Positions 10,268 through 20,971 of a stretch of 64,000 nucleotides of DNA are shown one piece after another (the first letter of the stretch is position 1; every line of letters starts with the position of its first letter). The notes beneath the pieces are model-generated. The model saw only the letters and a list, made by a program, of their open reading frames with translations. It was not told the origin of the DNA and did no database searches. The translations under genes were made by a program, and so were the position numbers. Source of the DNA: Roseibium sp. Sym1 (GTDB lineage Bacteria; Pseudomonadota; Alphaproteobacteria; Rhizobiales; Stappiaceae); contig NZ_CP114786.1 in assembly GCF_027359675.1 (NCBI RefSeq), positions 372,001 to 436,000 on the forward strand, in the 5' to 3' direction.

Positions 10268-11616
10268 AGGCTTTCCCGGATCGACTTGAGGCTGGCCTCG
10301 GCGATGTCGAACATCTCGTGGACCTGCGCCTCGGTGATGATCAGCGGCGGACAGAAGGCCATGGCGTCGAGCATGTTGCGCGAGATCAGGCCGTTTTCGT
10401 GAAAGACCGCGTTGGTCCTGGCGCCAAGCGCCCCCGGTGTTTCGGCAAGCGCTTCGTGATGCAGTTCCGCCGCGCCGATCAGGCCGATGCCGCGTGTCTC
10501 GATCACCAGCGGGTTGTCAGCCAGCGCGGCAAGTCGCTTCTGGAACGTCGGCGCGATCGCCTTGACGTGGCCGACCAGGTCCCGCTCCTCGATGATCTTC
10601 AGGTTTTCCAGCGCGACGGCGGCGGCGACCGGATGGCCGCTGCCCGTGTAACCATGGCCGAGCACGCCGATCTTGTGGCTCTCGTCGGCAATCGGCTGAT
10701 AGACGTCATCATTGATCAGCAGCGCGGAGATCGGCTGATAGGACGACGACAGCGCCTTTGACAGCGTCATGATGTCCGGCTGGAGAGAATAAGTCTCGGT
10801 CCCGAACATGTTGCCGGTGCGGCCGAAGCCGCAGATGACCTCGTCGGCGACAAACAGGATGCCGTATTTTTTCAGGATCGGCTGCACCGCTTCCCAATAG
10901 CCGTCCGGCGGCACGACCACGCCTCCGGCGCCCATCACCGGTTCGGCGAAAAAGGCGGCAATGGTCTCCGGGCCTTCGGCGAGGATCAGATCCTCCAGAT
11001 CCCGCGCGCAGCGTTTCGCGAAGTCCGCCTCGCTCTCGCCGTCCCGTTTCATGGTGCGGTAGTGCGGACAGGTGGTGTGCAGCACCTGCGGGATCGGCAG
11101 GTCGAAGGACCTGTGATTGTTGGGCAGGCCGGTCAGGCTGGCGGAGGCGACGGTGACGCCGTGGTAGCCGCGCACCCGTGAAATGATCTTCTTGCGCTCC
11201 GGCTGGCCCAGCGCGTTGGAGCGGTACCAGATCAGCTTGACCGCCGTGTCATTGGCTTCCGAGCCTGAATTGGTGAAATAGACCTTAGACATCGGCACCG
11301 GTGCCATCTCGATCAGCTTCTCGGCGAGCTCGATCGACGGACCGTGGGTCTTGTAGGTGAAGGTGTGATAATAGGGCAGCTTCTCTATCTGCCTTGTGGC
11401 GGCCTCCACGAGGCGCTTTTCGCCGAAGCCGACGGCGACGCTCCACAAACCGGCCATGCCCTCGATATAGCGCTTGCCGTTGATGTCCTCGACATAGATG
11501 CCCTCGCCCTTGTCGATCACGAGCGCGCCGGTCTCCTCCTGGCGGCGGGCATCGGCATAGGAGTGGAGCTGGACCGCGCTGTCGCGGGCTTCGAGCGAAT
11601 TGGGCAGCTGTGCCAT
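10264..11616 (-). CDS. Class III (omega) aminotransferase, PLP
   Basis: A 450-residue PLP aminotransferase of the ornithine/omega-amino-acid class. Seen: the N-terminal GLWSVAVGFGEKRL, YFTNSGSEANDTAVKL phosphate-cup motif, RGYHGVT, the aspartate-containing FVADEVICGFGRTG, and the PLP lysine K287 in LSKALSSSYQPISA. These are typical of beta-alanine/putrescine:pyruvate transaminases; the exact amine substrate cannot be read from sequence. It is the first gene of a coupled pair with anmK. The divergent gap to the SARP regulator is about 450 bp. Confidence 0.9.
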   Translation of the reverse strand: MAQLPNSLEARDSAVQLHSYADARRQEETGALVIDKGEGIYVEDINGKRYIEGMAGLWSVAVGFGEKRLVEAATRQIEKLPYYHTFTYKTHGPSIELAEKLIEMAPVPMSKVYFTNSGSEANDTAVKLIWYRSNALGQPERKKIISRVRGYHGVTVASASLTGLPNNHRSFDLPIPQVLHTTCPHYRTMKRDGESEADFAKRCARDLEDLILAEGPETIAAFFAEPVMGAGGVVVPPDGYWEAVQPILKKYGILFVADEVICGFGRTGNMFGTETYSLQPDIMTLSKALSSSYQPISALLINDDVYQPIADESHKIGVLGHGYTGSGHPVAAAVALENLKIIEERDLVGHVKAIAPTFQKRLAALADNPLVIETRGIGLIGAAELHHEALAETPGALGARTNAVFHENGLISRNMLDAMAFCPPLIITEAQVHEMFDIAEASLKSIRESL

Positions 11617-12066
11617 CGAGGGCCTCGTCTAGAAAGGTTCTGGAAGGGTCTCGCGGAAGAACGACTCCACGGAGCATGGCGCACACGCTAATCCCGCAAT
11701 GAGGCGCGGGCAATCGGTGGTTCAAGAATTTCCGTAAAATCCGGACGAGCGAGCGTTCCGGTTCCGGTCACGGTCCTGCCCGCCTGGACAGTGCCCGATG
11801 CAGAGCGTTCCGGCCGGGTGGCGAGCGCCCTTGTCCATCGCCGAACAGCTACGCCGTTGGATTTATCGTGTCATCCGCACAAATGACAGCGAATTTACGC
11901 AACATTGACGCAGCGATTACGTCACGCGGTTTACCCTGCAAGAGATCCGAATGCTATCTGGGATTTCAGAATGCCCCACACGCATCTTTTGCAGAGCTGC
12001 GCGAATTTGCGTATCATTCCTGCACTTTTTGTCGGTGGCAATGATGCCAATCCGCTGGGGGCAAAC
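11617..12066. promoter_or_regulatory. Divergent 450-bp control region with TGACG dyad
   Basis: No gene is convincing in this gap between the leftward aminotransferase and the rightward SARP regulator. An inverted pair TGACG (11906-11910) and CGTCA (11920-11924) separated by nine bases is the only clear symmetry; it could be an operator for either side. The region nearest the regulator is less GC-rich than its flanks. The regulator's frame is open back to 11905, so some of this could be coding if a start upstream of 12067 is used. Confidence 0.35.
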
Positions 12067-13839
12067 ATGAATTTCAGCCCGCGTAGTGATCATGACCTGG
12101 AAATCTTCCTGCTGGGCCCGCCCACGGTCATGGACCGAAGCGGCAATCAGCTGACACCGAAAAACCAGAAATCCAAGGCCGTCGTGGCCATGCTGGCGCT
12201 TGCGCCCCGCGGATCCCGCTCGCGCGTCTGGCTGCGTGACAAGCTCTGGAGCGACCGCAGCGAGGATCAGGCCTCCGCCAGCCTCCGGCAGGCCCTGTTG
12301 GATATTCGGAAAAGCTTCGGCGCGGACTACAAGGACATCCTGATCGCCGACAAGTATTCGGTGACCCTCGATCTGTCCCGGGTCCAGGTGGATGCCAAGC
12401 AAATCAGCGAACAAGCGGACAAAGGCCTGCTGCACCTGTCCGACGAGCAGCATGATTTTTCGGAGCATTTCCTGGAAGGCTTTGACATCTGCGATCCGGA
12501 ATTCGAAAGCTGGCTGACGCTCGAACGGCAGATCTGGGATCAACGATTTGAAAAAACGCACACCGCGGCAGGCGGAGACGGATACGGCAGCGTTCCGGAC
12601 GTTGAGCATCTGAGCGAAGACCCTGCGGAGTACAAGCCTGCCCTGAACACGCCCGCACCGGGCCCGAACGAGGCATCCAGGGCCACCCCTTCGGCAGATG
12701 GCACCTGGGCCATCGGACTTCAGGACGTGCCGCCGACCCAGCCATGCGCGAACGCGCTCCAGCAGAAACTGATGCGCAACCTCCATGAAATGGGCCGCAT
12801 TCCCGTTCTGCGGACAAATGAGCCGATGCTGTCCAAGGGTCTGCGGCAGGTCACGCTGCCGCTTGCCGTTCGGGTGACGGAAACATCTCTCGGCGAGAAC
12901 GTCAGGCTGACCGTCGAGCTGGTGTCGACGGAAAACGGCATCACGCTTTGGACCTCGAGCCAGACCTTCACGCAATCCAGCTTCCTCGAGCCGTCCCAGT
13001 CGAACCTCAACGCTATTGTGTCCCAGACGGTCATTCAGATCGGACGCCTTCTGCAAACGACGGCGATCAACCCGGACATCGCCAGGGCAGGTGTCCTGAT
13101 CGAATGCATCTACCAGATCTTCGGTCTGTCCGAGGACCACCTTTACAGTGCCGACAAGAAGCTGGAGATGCTGCTGAAGCACCAGCCGAATGCGCAGACC
13201 TATGCCTGGATGGCCTTTTCCAAGTCCTTCCAGGTCGGGCAACGGTTTTCAGCCGATGCGGCCGCACAGATTTCGGAGGCCCAGTATTTCGCGACCAGGG
13301 CATTGGAGGAAGACGAATACGACCCGCTTGTCCTGTCCCTCGCTGCGCATATCCATTCCTACCTGTTCAGTGAATTCGACCTCGCGGCGTCCCTTTACGA
13401 GCGCGCGCTCAAGCTCGATCCCGAGCAGACCCTTGGCTGGGACCTTTATGCCACGCTGAACGCCTATTCCGGCCGCAACAGCAAGGCGCTTGCCATGGCG
13501 TCCTGGGCACAGCAGCTCGGTGCGAACACGCCCATCAGTTATTATTTCGACACAACAAAATGCATCGCGGCGACGCTCGCGGGCGATCACAGGAGCGCGA
13601 TTGCCGCAGGCGAAAGGGCGCTTGTGCAGCGCCCCAAGTTCAACTCCATCCTGCGCTACCTGATTTCCAGCCATGCCCATCTGGGCAATGTGCAGATGCT
13701 TGAAAGCCTGCGCCAGCGCCTGAATGACGTTGAACCCGACTTCAGCACCGAGATTCTTCGAGGAAGCGGTTACCCGGGTCTTGGAACCGAAGGCGGGCTG
13801 CATTTCCTGCAGGGCCTGCGCAAGGCCGGGCTTGATTGA
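12067..13839 (+). CDS. SARP/BTAD-type regulator with TolB-like and TPR parts
   Basis: A 590-residue predicted transcription regulator. Residues about 8-100 form the OmpR-like winged helix of SARP proteins (LEIFLLGPPTVMDRSGN, then KSKAVVAMLALAP and RVWLRDKLWSDRSED.ASASLRQAL), followed by a BTAD-like helical stretch. About 225-330 resembles the TolB-like domain seen in cyclase/regulator fusions (LAVRVTETSLGENVRLTVEL, NGITLWTSSQ). From about 340 to the end are TPR-like helices (ASLYERALKLDPEQTLGWDLYA). No transmembrane segment. The ATG at 12067 follows GGGGG; the frame is open to 11905. It heads a three-gene unit with a PAP2 protein (38 bp on) and a subtilase, which it probably controls. Confidence 0.85.
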   Translation: MNFSPRSDHDLEIFLLGPPTVMDRSGNQLTPKNQKSKAVVAMLALAPRGSRSRVWLRDKLWSDRSEDQASASLRQALLDIRKSFGADYKDILIADKYSVTLDLSRVQVDAKQISEQADKGLLHLSDEQHDFSEHFLEGFDICDPEFESWLTLERQIWDQRFEKTHTAAGGDGYGSVPDVEHLSEDPAEYKPALNTPAPGPNEASRATPSADGTWAIGLQDVPPTQPCANALQQKLMRNLHEMGRIPVLRTNEPMLSKGLRQVTLPLAVRVTETSLGENVRLTVELVSTENGITLWTSSQTFTQSSFLEPSQSNLNAIVSQTVIQIGRLLQTTAINPDIARAGVLIECIYQIFGLSEDHLYSADKKLEMLLKHQPNAQTYAWMAFSKSFQVGQRFSADAAAQISEAQYFATRALEEDEYDPLVLSLAAHIHSYLFSEFDLAASLYERALKLDPEQTLGWDLYATLNAYSGRNSKALAMASWAQQLGANTPISYYFDTTKCIAATLAGDHRSAIAAGERALVQRPKFNSILRYLISSHAHLGNVQMLESLRQRLNDVEPDFSTEILRGSGYPGLGTEGGLHFLQGLRKAGLD

Positions 13840-13877
13840 CGTGGAATTTCAGCAAGTCCGTTTGAACGGGGGAAACC

Positions 13878-14843
13878 ATGAATAAAGTCGATACAAATTT
13901 GCACCACTGTGGCTCCATCGCCGAATTTCTCAACCAAAGCCGGATTACAGTCGGGCCGGAAGGCCTCCAGTTCGATGCAATATCCGACACGCCGAGCGAG
14001 ATCTCCGTCAAGGCTCCTCTCGGCGCACAGGGGGCCGGTGGCGTCAGCGCTGTTCGCATGGTTCTGAACAAGTCAGTACTGAACAAGTCCGTCCTCAATA
14101 AGAACAAGAACAAAAATAAGAATAAAAACAAGAACAAGAACAAGAACAAAAACAAGCTGAAGGTCGCCAGCACGCAAGGGTCAACAGGCGCCTTGATGCC
14201 GACCGAGGCCCTGCTGCGCCTTCACCGTGCCGGGACAGGCAATCCGGACATGCGCATGCCGGCGGAATGGACCGACATCACCTTGACGCCGCCTCCCGGC
14301 CCGGATTTCAGCAGGCTGGAGACCCAGCTCCTGCTGGGAATGCAGAAAAACGTCAGGGAGCGCCAGCTTCGACTGCCCGATATCCAGCAGGAAGCGACGC
14401 TGGATCTGAGCGCGTTTACCCGACCGCTTGGAATTGACGGCCTCGCGGGCTTCGAAGCAACCGAAACCCTCTTCCTCGAGCTGCTGACGGTCACCGAATA
14501 TGTCGGCCTCTATTACAAGCAAGTGTTTTCACGGTTGCGGCCAAACCAGGTCGAGCCCCGCCTGCGTCCGTTGCTCGCCAATCCGGCGCATGAGGCCTAT
14601 CCGAGCAATCATTCCTTTCAGTGCCACACCATTGCCTTTGCCTTCAACGCGATCCTGCCCGAGCATCCGGCAACCCAGGCCTTGTCCGAAGTGGCCCTGA
14701 ATGTCGCTCAGAACCGGGAATGGGCCGGCCTGCACTATCCGAGCGACACTGCCGCCGGCCGGGAACTGGCCAAGAAATTCGCGCCGCGCTTCGCCGAAGC
14801 TTTCGCCGATCGCTATCAGGCCGTTCAACAGGAATGGCTCTAG
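13878..14843 (+). CDS. PAP2/haloperoxidase-like soluble phosphatase with Asn-Lys tract
   Basis: A 321-residue protein with no signal peptide or hydrophobic helices. The C-terminal half has the three PAP2 signature motifs: K214..R221-P222 (KxxxxxxRP), PSNH at 242-245 (family PSGH, here Asn for Gly), and R280..H286...D290 in NREWAGLHYPSD. Vanadium haloperoxidases and class A acid phosphatases share these phosphate/vanadate-binding residues, so it may be a phosphatase or an oxidase; sequence alone cannot decide. The N-terminal 100 residues are unrelated and include two LNKSV units and an (Asn-Lys)10 tract (residues 74-93). Lies between the SARP regulator and the protease; 16 bp separate it from the latter. 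Confidence 0.8.
   Translation: MNKVDTNLHHCGSIAEFLNQSRITVGPEGLQFDAISDTPSEISVKAPLGAQGAGGVSAVRMVLNKSVLNKSVLNKNKNKNKNKNKNKNKNKNKLKVASTQGSTGALMPTEALLRLHRAGTGNPDMRMPAEWTDITLTPPPGPDFSRLETQLLLGMQKNVRERQLRLPDIQQEATLDLSAFTRPLGIDGLAGFEATETLFLELLTVTEYVGLYYKQVFSRLRPNQVEPRLRPLLANPAHEAYPSNHSFQCHTIAFAFNAILPEHPATQALSEVALNVAQNREWAGLHYPSDTAAGRELAKKFAPRFAEAFADRYQAVQQEWL
14097..14156 (+). repeat. In-frame hexanucleotide tract coding (Asn-Lys)10
   Basis: Ten in-frame AAY-AAR codon pairs, mostly AACAAG with AATAAG, AACAAA and AATAAA variants, sit inside the PAP2-like gene. They are strikingly A-rich in a GC-rich genome. Just before them two LNKSV units look like degenerate earlier steps of the same expansion. Because the unit is six bases, copy-number change would lengthen or shorten the protein without shifting frame. 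Confidence 0.9.
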
Positions 14844-14859
14844 GAGAGGGGCAGAGAAC

Positions 14860-16398
14860 ATGGACCAGACAGTGACCCAAAAAGCGCAGCCGACCAGCGA
14901 ATACCATTATCTCTGGCATCTCATGGCCCTCGGCGTGATCGTTCCCGACGGGACGGGAGACGGCATAGAGACAACCCTGTGGGACAAGCTGAGTGACGAA
15001 GGGGATGTTCAGCCCGCGCGCGTTGCCATGATCGACGTGGGCTGCCATTTCGACCACCCCAACCTCCAGGGCCGGGTCGACCCGGAACGGTCGATCGATT
15101 TCACCACCTCGCCGTATGGCACCAGGTCGAAGAAACATGCCGGCAACACGTGCCAACACAATTTCGCCGGACTGGATACAAGTCTCCTCAAGCTGCAGGA
15201 TCTGTCACAGGTCGAGGCCGAGATCTTTACGGATATCGTCCAGCAGCTGGAAGGCTCAAGCGGGCACGTGCGTGCATTCGGAGACGTCGAAGCCCCGTTC
15301 GCGTCTCACGGCACCGCCGTCAGCGGCCTGATCGTCGGCGGTCCGGAAAATTGCCCGCAAGGCATCAAGCCGACCGAAGGCGTCATTCCCTATTTCGGGG
15401 TCGACCCGTTTTCCCGGCTGATATCGATCCGCACCGGTTTCGACAACGATCCCCTGCAGTTCGTCGCCGCGCTGCTCTATGCCTGGCACCAGAACCCGGA
15501 TGTCATCGTCATGCCGCGCGGTTTCCCGGATCCCGACCAGGCCCCTGCCTTCAAGGAAGACTTCAAGGCGGACCTCGAAAAATGGGAGAACCGGGATGCT
15601 GCGGACCTGATCGAGCGGCTGCAGACCCTTGAGGCCGGCGCTGACACGATCGATACAAAAAGGCCCCAGTTGCCAATATCGGGACGCAGGCTCTGGCGCG
15701 TCGTCACCTCGCTGTTCAAGGCGATCAGCAACCATGTACCGATCGTCTGTGCGGCAGGCAATGAGGGCGAGAGCCAGTTGCTGTTTCCCGCGAACCTGGC
15801 GGACCGTGAAAACGGCATCATCGCTGTCGGCGCGGTGTCCGGACAGGGCTATCGCTCCGGGTATTCCAACTATGGCGAGGGTCTGACCGTTGTCGCTCCC
15901 TCGGACGACATGGTCGTCTTCAACCGGCATCAGCTGCGAAGCACGGAGAAAAGCTCGGAAGAACTGGGTTATCTGCTGCCCAAGGGGGCAAAGGAATACC
16001 CGTTCAGCCCCAGATGGCTGTTGAGCACGGATATCCCCGGTCGGTTCGGTTACGATACGGGAGATGCCGAGACGGAAGAACTCGGCACCGGCTCGGCACA
16101 GAGCGGTTATTACACCCAGTTTGGCGGCACGTCCGGCGCCTGCGCCCTTGTTGGCGGTGTCATCGCCTTGATCCGCCGCGCCGAACGGATCGCCAACAAG
16201 TCTTCCAAGGTGCGCGACGGCCGCGATGTGAAAGCCCTGCTGATCAAGACGGCCCGCAAGGACATCCTCATCGACAACCAGCACAAGCAACTGAACACGG
16301 ACGCGATGAACGCGGACCAGGAAGACGTGGCCCCGTTCTCGACGTTCTTTGGCGGTGGCCTTGTCGACGCAAAAGCGGCCATCGGAACCATACTCTGA
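14860..16398 (+). CDS. Subtilisin-like (S8) serine protease, cytosolic type
   Basis: A 512-residue S8 peptidase. The catalytic triad is visible: D59 in AMIDVGCHFDHPN, H150 in SHGTAVSG, and S425 in GGTSGACALVGG, with the oxyanion asparagine N301 in CAAGNEG. The usual GTSxAxP has Cys-Ala-Leu in place of the proline. There is no signal peptide or propeptide-like pre-region, so it probably acts inside the cell or leaves by an unusual route. About 60-145 and 310-410 are long inserts compared with minimal subtilisins. The start ATG at 14860 has AGGAGAGGG upstream and lies 16 bp after the PAP2 stop; a strong terminator follows the gene. Confidence 0.88.
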   Translation: MDQTVTQKAQPTSEYHYLWHLMALGVIVPDGTGDGIETTLWDKLSDEGDVQPARVAMIDVGCHFDHPNLQGRVDPERSIDFTTSPYGTRSKKHAGNTCQHNFAGLDTSLLKLQDLSQVEAEIFTDIVQQLEGSSGHVRAFGDVEAPFASHGTAVSGLIVGGPENCPQGIKPTEGVIPYFGVDPFSRLISIRTGFDNDPLQFVAALLYAWHQNPDVIVMPRGFPDPDQAPAFKEDFKADLEKWENRDAADLIERLQTLEAGADTIDTKRPQLPISGRRLWRVVTSLFKAISNHVPIVCAAGNEGESQLLFPANLADRENGIIAVGAVSGQGYRSGYSNYGEGLTVVAPSDDMVVFNRHQLRSTEKSSEELGYLLPKGAKEYPFSPRWLLSTDIPGRFGYDTGDAETEELGTGSAQSGYYTQFGGTSGACALVGGVIALIRRAERIANKSSKVRDGRDVKALLIKTARKDILIDNQHKQLNTDAMNADQEDVAPFSTFFGGGLVDAKAAIGTIL

Positions 16399-16422
16399 TA
16401 ACACGTGCACAAAAGCCCATTG

Positions 16423-16450
16423 AAAGCGGCCCCCGGCCGCTTTCTTTTTT
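16423..16450 (+). terminator. Rho-independent terminator after the S8 protease
   Basis: A perfect 9-bp stem AAAGCGGCC/GGCCGCTTT with a CCC loop is followed by CTTTTTT. It begins 25 bases after the protease stop codon and marks the end of the SARP-PAP2-S8 unit. Confidence 0.9.
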
Positions 16451-16585
16451 GTCTTGTGACCCAGCGATCCGCCAAATTCGATCGAAATCCCGATCAGCGC
16501 GAAAAAACAGCTGCCAATTGTCATTTCTTACGAAACTTTAACGCTGCCTTTCCGAAGCCTTGACGCACATTCCCTAAGGTTATCT

Positions 16586-16657
16586 CGCGTCCTGAGTTAC
16601 CGATTAAATCACTTTTCAGCACCTAGTCCTTTCTCCCGCATGGTAACTCAGGACGCG
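16586..16657. repeat. Perfect 16-bp inverted repeat with 40-bp loop
   Basis: CGCGTCCTGAGTTACC at 16586-16601 is matched base for base by its complement at 16642-16657. The 40-bp loop is AT-richer and contains GATTAAATC. This lies in a roughly 610-bp gap between the protease and the cold-shock gene in which no gene is convincing; the right part of the gap (from about 16780) is AT-rich and probably holds the cold-shock promoter and long leader. The repeat could be a small RNA, a two-site operator or an element remnant. Confidence 0.6.
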
Positions 16658-17012
16658 CCCGACCCGCCCCTTGTGCCGCGATGGCACCAACCGGCAGGCC
16701 TCACAGACATGGCCCCAAACTGTCCATCACCTGTCACGAACCGTGGGATTTGTTGAGTTTTCACTTCCAAATCGGCACGTTCTATTAAGAGCACTCCAAA
16801 TTTTTAAATGTAAAAATAATATTCTTTTCGAGTCAGCCTTGTTTCTGACACCGTTTTCACCTACATGACGTTCATCGATATTGCTTGATGAACTTTGTGA
16901 CTGCGCGGCGTGCCGCGGCCTGAACGATCTTCCCTATCAATCTCGACTTTTTGCACCGTCGCGCATGCCGCGTGGCGGCACTACTCTCATGATCGATTGA
17001 AAGGAAATCGTT

Positions 17013-17222
17013 ATGACCATCGGAACCGTCAAGTTTTTCAACAGCACCAAAGGCTTCGGCTTCATTCAGCCGGAAGATGGCGCTGCAGACGTCTTCGTTC
17101 ACATCACCGCTGTCGAGCGCGCAGGCATGCCGCCGCTGGTTGAAGGCCAGAAGGTCAGCTTTGAAGTTGTCCAGGACCGCCGCACCGGCAAGTCCAGCGC
17201 AGACAACCTGCAGGCTGCTTAA
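17013..17222 (+). CDS. Cold-shock domain protein
   Basis: A 69-residue single cold-shock domain, which binds single-stranded RNA/DNA and melts RNA structure. Both RNA-binding motifs are present: KGFGFI (RNP1) and VFVHI (RNP2), after TIGTVKFFN. The ATG at 17013 has AAAGGAAA upstream. The AT-rich stretch before it fits a long 5' leader, as is usual for csp genes, and a terminator follows at 17281. The basic 79-residue gene and the desaturase lie in the same direction downstream; a membrane-fluidity link is inference. Confidence 0.95.
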
Positions 17223-17280
17223 AGCTTCGTCCAGGTCCCTGACCACGGATGTACTGGCACGGACCTCATGGATGAAACGA

Positions 17281-17307
17281 AAGGTCGGGTATTGCCCGGC
17301 CTTTTTT
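17281..17307 (+). terminator. Terminator after the cold-shock gene
   Basis: AAGG(T)CGGG and CCCGGCCTT form a hairpin (one bulged T) around the loop TATTG, followed by TTTTTT. It is 58 bases after the cold-shock stop codon and would separate that gene from the two downstream genes. Confidence 0.8.
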
Positions 17308-17338
17308 GTATTTCAGCTTTTTAATAGGGACCTGAACG

Positions 17339-19854: not shown

Positions 19855-20948
19855 CCGATCAGATGGTTTACACATTTCGCATTTGGGGGATCCCTGAATG
19901 CCTTGGAAAGAGTGTAGGCCTATGGATGAACGACTTCGTTTTGTTGCGCGGCTGCTTGAAGGCGAGAAGATGGCGCCGCTGTGCCGGGAGTTCGGTATAT
20001 CACGGGTTACGGGCTACAAGATTTTTGAACGGTACAAGGAATGTGGCCTGGACGGCCTCAATGACCGAAGCCGGCGTCCCTATCGTCAGGCCAACAAGCT
20101 TCCCTTCCAGATCGAACGCTGCATCCTGTGTCTCAAGCGAGAGCATCCAACCTGGGGCGCGCCGAAGATCCGCGACAAGCTGGTCCGGCAATACCCGATG
20201 GTCAAGGCTCCGGCGATCAGCACGGTCCATGCGGTGCTGGACCGTCACGGTCTGGTCCAGCACCGCAAACGCCGTCGCTACAAGGCCCGCGGAACCGAGC
20301 TTCATGACGCACAGGACGTGAACGGGCTCTGGTGCGCCGACTACAAGGGCGAGTTCAAGCTCGGCAACCGGCAGTACTGCTATCCGCTGACGATCACTGA
20401 CTACAGATCGCGCTATTTGCTGGCCTGCGAAGGCTTGACCTGCACCAAATCCGACTTTGCCTTCTCTGTTTTTGAACGCGTCTTCAAGGAGTTCGGCCTT
20501 CCTGCCGCCATTCGCACGGACAACGGCTTGCCGTTCGCATCGCCAAACGGGCTCTACAACTTGTCAAAGCTGTCGGTGTGGTGGCTGCGTCTGGGGATCG
20601 GCATCGAGCGTATCAAGCCAGGCCACCCGCAGCAAAACGGCCGGCACGAACGCATGCATCTGACCTTGAAGAAGGAGGCCACCCGACCGCCAGGCATGAA
20701 CAGCCTTCAGCAGCAGGCCAAGTTCGATGCCTTCATGAAGGAATTCAACGAGGAACGACCTCATGAAGCGCTCAGAATGAAGACACCGGCGGAAGTCTAC
20801 ACAGCCTCATCAAGGCAATATCAGGGCCTGCCGGACCTGGACTACCCTTTCCATGACAGGGACGCCCTGGTCACCGCATGCGGACGGATCTGCCTGCATC
20901 GCAAGAAGATCAACGTCTCGACCGTTCTGGCCGGTCAGAAACTCGGGA
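19855..20948 (+). mobile_element. IS481-family element, copy 1, right end lost
   Basis: The left end is recognised by ATGGTTTACACATTT at 19863-19877, which matches the inverted right end of copy 2 (AAATGTAAACCAT near 45346-45358). The element runs into an IS21-type terminus at 20949, which removed its last ~45 codons and its right inverted repeat. The exact first base is uncertain by a few positions. Confidence 0.75.
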
Positions 20949-20971
20949 TGTTGATTTTCACCGAGAACTGA
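19898..20971 (+). pseudogene. IS481 transposase, 3'-truncated by IS21 end
   Basis: Reads as a 357-residue DDE transposase: N-terminal helix-turn-helix (residues about 8-50, LCREFGISRVTGYKIF), then an rve integrase core with WCADYKGEF, AIRTDNGLPF and a late ERMHLTLKKE. Copy 2 ends with a conserved LVSFLDYDLGYFD tail; here the frame switches at GQKLG into IS21 terminal sequence and stops at MLIFTEN, so the last ~45 residues are gone. Residues 53-207 are almost identical in DNA to copy 2, while the part after AAIRTDN is much more different. Confidence 0.8.

Follow-up and report, generated by a model that had tools for sequence, protein, structure and literature searches.

A linked SARP-like regulator, repeat-tagged PAP2 protein and subtilase in Roseibium sp. 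Sym1 and related loci

Here we describe three adjacent genes of Roseibium sp. Sym1 that encode a SARP-like regulator, a PAP2 protein resembling acid phosphatases and a subtilase of family S8. They lie within a stretch of 64,000 nucleotides, hereafter the window (contig NZ_CP114786.1, positions 372,001 to 436,000). Class A acid phosphatases are secreted with a signal peptide. The window PAP2 shares fold and catalytic residues with 7f17 and 1d2t, which we take to be members of class A, but differs in its lack of an apparent signal peptide, its N-terminal repeat tract, its co-encoded regulator and protease, and the motif PSNH where the classic motif is PSGH. Like the intracellular subtilisins and the PatA/PagA-type and QhpE subtilases, the window protease is an S8 enzyme with intact catalytic residues, although it is longer than these (512 amino acids). 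Unlike the PatA/PagA-type and QhpE enzymes, it has a phosphatase as neighbor instead of a precursor of a ribosomally synthesized and post-translationally modified peptide (RiPP) or QhpC; the QhpE model matches a neighboring subtilase in one related locus (L072), not the S8 of the triad. SARP operators are heptameric direct repeats with 4-nt spacers and a classical 11-bp unit, according to an excerpt of PMC10972967. This operator plan recurs upstream of the window module, and a winged-helix/BTAD-like N-terminus is found in some relatives of its regulator. The differences from SARPs are that the window regulator is alphaproteobacterial, that the operator precedes the regulator's own operon, that the domain match of the window protein is weak and that the listed structure matches are TPR proteins. 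Finally, hydroxylase genes of the kind known from the aKG-HExxH RiPP clusters (PflC/PosC) adjoin the triad in 28 of 80 related loci, whereas none was matched in the genome of Roseibium sp. Sym1 or found in the other 52 loci.

The three genes form, close to certainly, one module. It is apparently undescribed, as the first-pass annotation, made from the DNA letters, had proposed: the openly licensed literature yielded no description of the operon, one elsewhere being possible, and the terms PAP2, phosphatase and SARP are absent from the accessible portion of PMC10907252. Our preferred account, which we hold tentatively and rate somewhat short of even, is that the module regulates itself and that its protease would act on the PAP2 protein through the repeat tag of the latter. 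The features concerned are listed below.

12067-13839, + strand: SARP-like regulator, 590 amino acids, with a putative N-terminal winged helix/BTAD region, a middle region and C-terminal TPRs
13878-14843, + strand: soluble PAP2/acid phosphatase-like protein, 321 amino acids (PF01569, E = 2.3e-8)
14860-16398, + strand: cytosolic-type subtilase (S8), 512 amino acids (PF00082, E = 1.5e-22)
11894-11921, + strand: putative SARP-type operator, TTTACGC-N4-TTGACGC-N4-ATTACG(T), heptamers at an 11-bp period
14097-14156, + strand: perfect (Asn-Lys)10 tract, PAP2 residues 74-93, with varied codons
16422..16452, + strand: intrinsic terminator at the operon end, 10-pair stem, 3-nt loop and TTTTTT run
11718..16825, no strand assigned: inserted island holding the entire module, in place of which locus L138 (genome G047, same genus) has 215 bp

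Linkage, insertion site and operator

The three open reading frames (ORFs) are separated by 38 bp (regulator to PAP2) and 16 bp (PAP2 to S8), as annotated at first pass. The terminator reported at their end is likewise present, at 16422-16444, as a 10-pair stem followed by a T-run, while a scan of the whole region returned about as many terminator-like sites as its shuffles (7 vs 6.3).

The unit had been proposed on the understanding that its genes stay linked in relatives. Contigs were searched with the PAP2 alignment alone, which gave 162 relatives, and gene maps were drawn with a simple purpose-written gene caller. SARP-PAP2-S8 order and strand are kept in 78 of the best 80 loci. The closely related Rhizobium loci do not count as independent, some of them forming pairs that are at least 95% alike over long stretches. 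The two exceptions are a contig that stops before the S8 gene (L014) and a locus in which the SARP was not found (L058). Judging by record names, most hosts belong to the Rhodobacterales or the Rhizobiales. Seventy-one plasmid records carry a relative, 31 of them typed conjugative. Within the family, a relative of the window S8 at 1e-10 occurs in 3 of 87 genomes (own included), all of the same genus; the other two, G056 and G050, hold a divergent triad.

Alignment to the DNA of L138 runs through both flanks of the module, at 85% over window positions 11258-11717 and at 88% over 16826-17309. Between the flanks there are 5108 bp in the window vs 215 bp in L138, where the empty site is bordered by aminotransferase and desaturase genes. 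Since the flanks are contiguous in G047, the module was gained or lost in one piece, an empty-site call that rests on this alignment. Together with the 78 linked loci, the insertion site rules out chance neighbors. The single unit claimed at first pass is thus borne out by linkage, by absence of the block in a genome of the same genus and by the SARP-type operator upstream.

The regulator had been labeled SARP-type with TolB-like and TPR parts. Its TPR part holds: TPR_19 is matched in 12 of 13 relatives, and the window protein itself gives weak TPR matches in Pfam, with neither BTAD nor Trans_reg_C. BTAD is matched in three of the 13 relatives (best 5.2e-6) and Trans_reg_C also in three (best 0.01), and the AfsR model matches the window protein weakly (0.022 over residues 6-115). 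The TolB-like label is weak, with a marginal match in one of the 13 (0.027). A profile built from the 13 relatives matches structures of TPR proteins; of its 104 solved-structure matches, the 60 listed include no SARP. An alternative longer frame begins at TTG 11905; because the operator overlaps this codon, the start at 12067 is more likely.

Upstream regions of eight close relatives align with the conserved columns TTNACGC-N4-TTNACGC-N4-NTTACG. Of 79 upstream regions, 49 (that of the window included) have the two-heptamer core with no more than one mismatch and 62 have it with no more than two, vs 1.3% and 3.4% of 1323 controls; L020 (too short) and L058 (SARP not found) were left out of the count. 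At least three core mismatches are seen in 17 of the 79 regions and at least four in 7. A weaker variant is common in distant Rhodobacterales loci, and the best match lies off the expected place in some loci (e.g. L018, L029, L037, L047, L075 and L083). Within the genome, the window operator is the sole site at two or fewer mismatches of the longer pattern. The candidate fits the SARP plan of heptameric direct repeats in an 11-bp unit, and the sequence suggests that the module probably regulates itself.

The PAP2 protein and its repeat tract

Residues K214, R221, S243, H245, R280, H286 and D290 of the PAP2 protein are the catalytic ones and are near-universal in its relatives, being kept in 117-119 of the 120 close matches listed and in 119-120 of the 120 GNT-type matches listed. 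They fall in the motifs K214-R221P222, P242-S-N-H245 and N279-R280-X5-H286-X3-D290. Compared with what we take to be the class A signature (KX6RP ... PSGH ... SRX5HX3D), all catalytic residues are there, with a G to N and an S to N change. The PSNH form is found in 80 of the 120 close matches listed, and PSGH in all 120 GNT-type matches listed.

In an AlphaFold model of the protein (mean predicted local distance difference test, pLDDT, 79), a domain starting near residue 131 is predicted well, and confidence is mostly low ahead of it. The top Foldseek matches are bacterial acid phosphatases (7f18 and 7f17; E about 1.5e-7), with a template modeling (TM) score of up to 0.77 by target length (7f17); haloperoxidases and their homologs rank lower (9l8x, 8cxl, 4usz). 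Of the earlier label, PAP2/vanadium-haloperoxidase-like, the PAP2 half stands (PF01569), and haloperoxidase is not specifically favored. The N-terminus, MNKVDTNLHHCGSIAEFLNQ, has no hydrophobic leader as judged by eye, and the protein is apparently cytosolic. Because no signal peptide of the sort that marks secreted class A enzymes is apparent by eye, we do not class it with them. A C-terminal Glu-Trp pair (window residues 319-320) is near-invariant in the listed NK-type and GNT-type matches; the listed matches that share it include some of the partnerless kind, acid phosphatases without the other two genes.

The Asn-Lys feature noted at first pass is a perfect (NK)10 directly preceded by LNKSVLNKSVL, in a region of low model confidence (pLDDT about 41-51 over residues 71-100). 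Elsewhere in the 7.26-Mb genome there is no perfect (NK)4, all seven overlapping matches lying in the PAP2 gene, and a genome-wide shared (NK)4 sorting tag was dropped on this ground.

PAP2 N-terminal regions were compared, as suggested with the initial annotation. A tandem tract ahead of the catalytic domain (score of at least 5) is present in 115 of 117 loci, or in 110 of 112 distinct places once five repeated ones are removed (L060/L175, L095/L171, L102/L172, L105/L178, L117/L191). L170, L179 and L198 had been removed earlier as duplicates, and the partnerless acid phosphatases served as a separate control set. The score threshold was lowered to 5 from 9, which was too strict. The similarity-based search on which this reading rests found the PAP2 in all 117 loci; an earlier motif filter had missed the frame in 36 of 119. 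Because the frames used for reading tracts ran from stop to stop, the start codon is not fixed in a few loci. In the two loci below threshold, L039 and L058, an NK tract is broken up. Among the controls, 2 of 22 partnerless loci score at least 5 (top score 6; the place L103/L195 is counted twice), as do none of 120 listed S8 proteins, and the S8 reaches at least 6 in 1 of 81 loci.

Across the loci we count about 25 repeat units, mostly perfect short tandem repeats. Close relatives carry an alternating Asn-Lys tract and others Asn-Arg, Gly-Arg or Lys-Thr; in sister modules (see below) the units are GNT, GNA, SNT, GVS, GVT, GGA, GGF, GGNWF, GGAS, AGR, GNQ, SFN, NAE, DAR, TAM and others. Same-codon use in the window tract is 9 of 18 vs 9.5 expected. 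Over the loci it is below expectation, both for period 2 (0.457 vs 0.532, 83 loci) and for longer periods (0.264 vs 0.381, 32 loci). Since the codons vary beyond what codon usage predicts, the counts point to maintenance at the protein level and not to recent slippage, and a neutral slippage origin is disfavored. Our reading is that the repeats are old and are preserved at the protein level. For a bacterial enzyme, we judge it unusual that repeats keep their kind but not their sequence and persist while their codons drift.

The protease and the distant sister modules

D59, H150, N301 and S425 are invariant among 44 aligned S8 sequences. By sequence and model, the window protein has the Asp-His-Ser triad, the oxyanion Asn and the subtilase fold of family S8, and is on this evidence intact in its catalytic residues. 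In the model (pLDDT 84.4) the strand running to D59 starts at residue 54; judged by eye, the stretch before it is too short for a usual prodomain. No secretion signal was recognized in the module proteins when their N-termini were read by eye. Among solved chains, the S8 has its best sequence matches in intracellular subtilisins, with about 65 residues covered. No subtilisin group is prominent in the fold search, where the protease BprV of a footrot bacterium comes first and PagA, EpiP, PatG and a lanthipeptide protease appear among many subtilisins.

Wider searches found relatives in 29 of 385 genomes of the class and in 28 of 398 of the phylum, counts that include the genome of origin and partnerless acid phosphatases. 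The latter make up 16 of the 29 loci read class-wide and 6 of the 30 read phylum-wide, and nearly all remaining loci are sister modules with a repeat-tagged PAP2. Among the loci read phylum-wide, L175, L179 (the window) and L185 are of the NK type, and the module is present in two genomes outside the class (G485 and G691).

In a tally made by hand over 28 distinct places of the distant type, with the regulator scored in the stretch seen, a protease lies nearby in 27 (22 S8, 5 A4) and a TPR-type regulator in 26. The five A4 cases are sister loci with a Peptidase_A4 gene, of an unrelated protease family, where others have an S8 (E 2e-18 to 1e-28). Several of the long S8 proteins are divergent yet match PF00082 above cut-off, and the one in L133, which has no match, aligns to them. 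The N-terminus of the regulator is also exchanged, being guanylate-cyclase-like in L124 and L126 and weakly winged-helix-like in L133.

One of these distant modules, L124, is in the Roseibium sp. Sym1 genome itself, outside the window (G000:C1:2294448-2299803). It comprises a cyclase-like/TPR regulator, a PAP2 in which GVS is repeated about 14 times, and a 736-amino-acid divergent subtilase.

Possible mechanisms and neighboring genes

We propose that the SARP/TPR protein would bind the heptamer operator before its own gene and drive the whole operon. The PAP2 would be an apparently cytosolic enzyme of the acid phosphatase fold with an unstructured repeat ahead of its catalytic domain. It would also be the substrate of its partner protease, cut at or beside the low-complexity tract, and the cut would either activate or remove it, so that a potentially harmful phosphatase is active under dedicated control. 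The tract would then serve as an accessible entry region for the protease, its repetitive, unfolded character mattering and its exact composition mattering little. We prefer this account because it explains protease exchange and persistence of the tag most economically. Linkage, block insertion, the unique operator, protease exchange, tract rates, codon rates and the unstructured state of the tract in the model were counted in its favor. The broader proposition, a widespread modular control system that joins a TPR regulator, a cytosolic phosphatase with a reinvented tag and a protease of at least two unrelated families, with the tag as an on/off handle, is somewhat more doubtful, and we offer it as a possibility.

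Several observations weigh against protease action on the tag. No conserved cleavage site can be named, and most repeats are perfect, whereas disorder alone predicts that imperfect ones should be common. Tract rates are lower in listed database proteins (42/65, 28/55 and 87/120, with shuffle rates of 1/1300, 4/1100 and 3/2400), partly because their tracts are short or imperfect. The figure of 27 proteases in 28 distant places is partly circular, since family members and partnerless enzymes were separated after their neighbors had been seen, and two further distant matches (G466 and G417) stand outside the tally. Gene orientation differs in L187, L198 and L199. L128 (3915-5282) and L132 (4322-5707) have their subtilase upstream and in the opposite orientation, which means that the module does not always form a single operon. 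No protease was found near the L100 genes.

A tag beside an exchangeable protease raises the question of whether repetitiveness as such can act as a signal for recognition or protection. The module may hint at how acid-phosphatase-like enzymes stay safe in the cytosol. Being compact, apparently self-regulated and also plasmid-borne, it could be transferred whole into a laboratory strain for testing.

An unlikely alternative, though one to be taken seriously, is that the tract is a self-associating assembly tag that clusters the phosphatase, with the protease dissolving or remodeling the clusters or filaments. Strict periodicity of the tract and its unstructured state in the model are consistent with this, and units such as GGF, GR, GNQ and AGV presumably resemble known self-associating low-complexity types. 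However, units of very different properties (NK, NAE, GGA, DAR) occupy the same place.

A little less probable is a role in defense or self-poisoning, in which the protease would unleash a toxic cytosolic phosphatase upon infection or stress. The patchy spread within the family (3 of 87 genomes), the island insertion, the swapped parts and the plasmid records, conjugative ones included, would suit such a system. Yet a PADLOC-DB search of the three proteins gave no significant match and placed none in a known anti-phage defense family (best E 0.056 for the S8 and 0.081 for the regulator; none for PAP2), and in PHROGs only the S8 is matched, as a protease.

We consider it rather improbable that the module is a RiPP-like pathway in which the tract is an in-cis peptide substrate, modified for example by Asn beta-hydroxylation and released by the protease. 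The suggestion comes from the 28 loci, in records named Rhizobium, Neorhizobium, Peteryoungia or Rhizobiales bacterium, that have genes for an aKG-HExxH peptide hydroxylase and ThiF downstream of the triad. PMC12636437 describes PflC and PosC as hydroxylating strings of Gln as well as an introduced Asn, and because of this activity the NK tract in those loci may be hydroxylated at Asn. The RiPP proteases among the fold matches of the S8 (PagA, EpiP, PatG, lanthipeptide protease) point the same way, as does L045, which holds a radical SAM/SPASM maturase (3e-43), a daptide-type methyltransferase (8e-30) and two weak NHLP-clan precursor-like small proteins, all below curated cut-offs; L049 is alike by gene map. 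On the other hand, the true substrates in L045 might be its precursor-like genes. Neither the hydroxylase nor ThiF was matched in the remaining 52 loci within the stretch examined, TIGR04267 has no match in the Roseibium sp. Sym1 genome, and none of the ORFs next to the window triad was seen to encode a modifying enzyme. The (GGA)n and (AGV)n tracts carry no functional side chain to modify. With no enzyme match here and nothing to modify in (GGA)n, Asn hydroxylation is unlikely as a general function, and the general RiPP reading was lowered accordingly.

Very unlikely, in our view, is a vanadium haloperoxidase-type enzyme of metabolite chemistry with an incidental protease: fold and residues are in common and weaker structural matches exist (9l8x, 8cxl, 4usz), but the best structural matches are acid phosphatases and a protease persists in 27 of the 28 distant places. 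Short tandem repeats often arise by slippage, but that the tract is a by-product of this without a role is scarcely credible, given that codons differ beyond expectation while residues repeat and that nearly all family loci have a tract.

Other genes adjoin the triad in particular loci. A RiPP-like cluster follows it directly in L045 (10692-16768, scanned) and L049 (10759-16820, by gene map), with a radical SAM/SPASM maturase, two proteins of 107-108 amino acids with a GNCGCAL.GPGGVL-type tail, an HExxH enzyme, a SAM-decarboxylase-like protein, a daptide-type methyltransferase, two proteins of 59-76 amino acids and ThiF. L012 (10829-12765) has a second S8-like protease and then an 84-amino-acid protein that by eye resembles a stand-alone subtilisin propeptide inhibitor, with no NCBIfam match. 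Upstream of the triad, L072 (2228-4677) and eight related loci encode a pair of small proteins whose N-terminal parts are acidic, one of the pair ending in a basic Cys-containing tail, together with a second subtilase for which the mycosin and QhpE models score alike (about 3.5e-26, both below cut-offs). In the window, a small gene that by eye is cold-shock-like (17013-17222) lies immediately past the island edge, in DNA conserved at 88% in L138, and an IS481-like integrase (rve, HTH; 19898-20971) lies about 3.5 kb 3' of the module.

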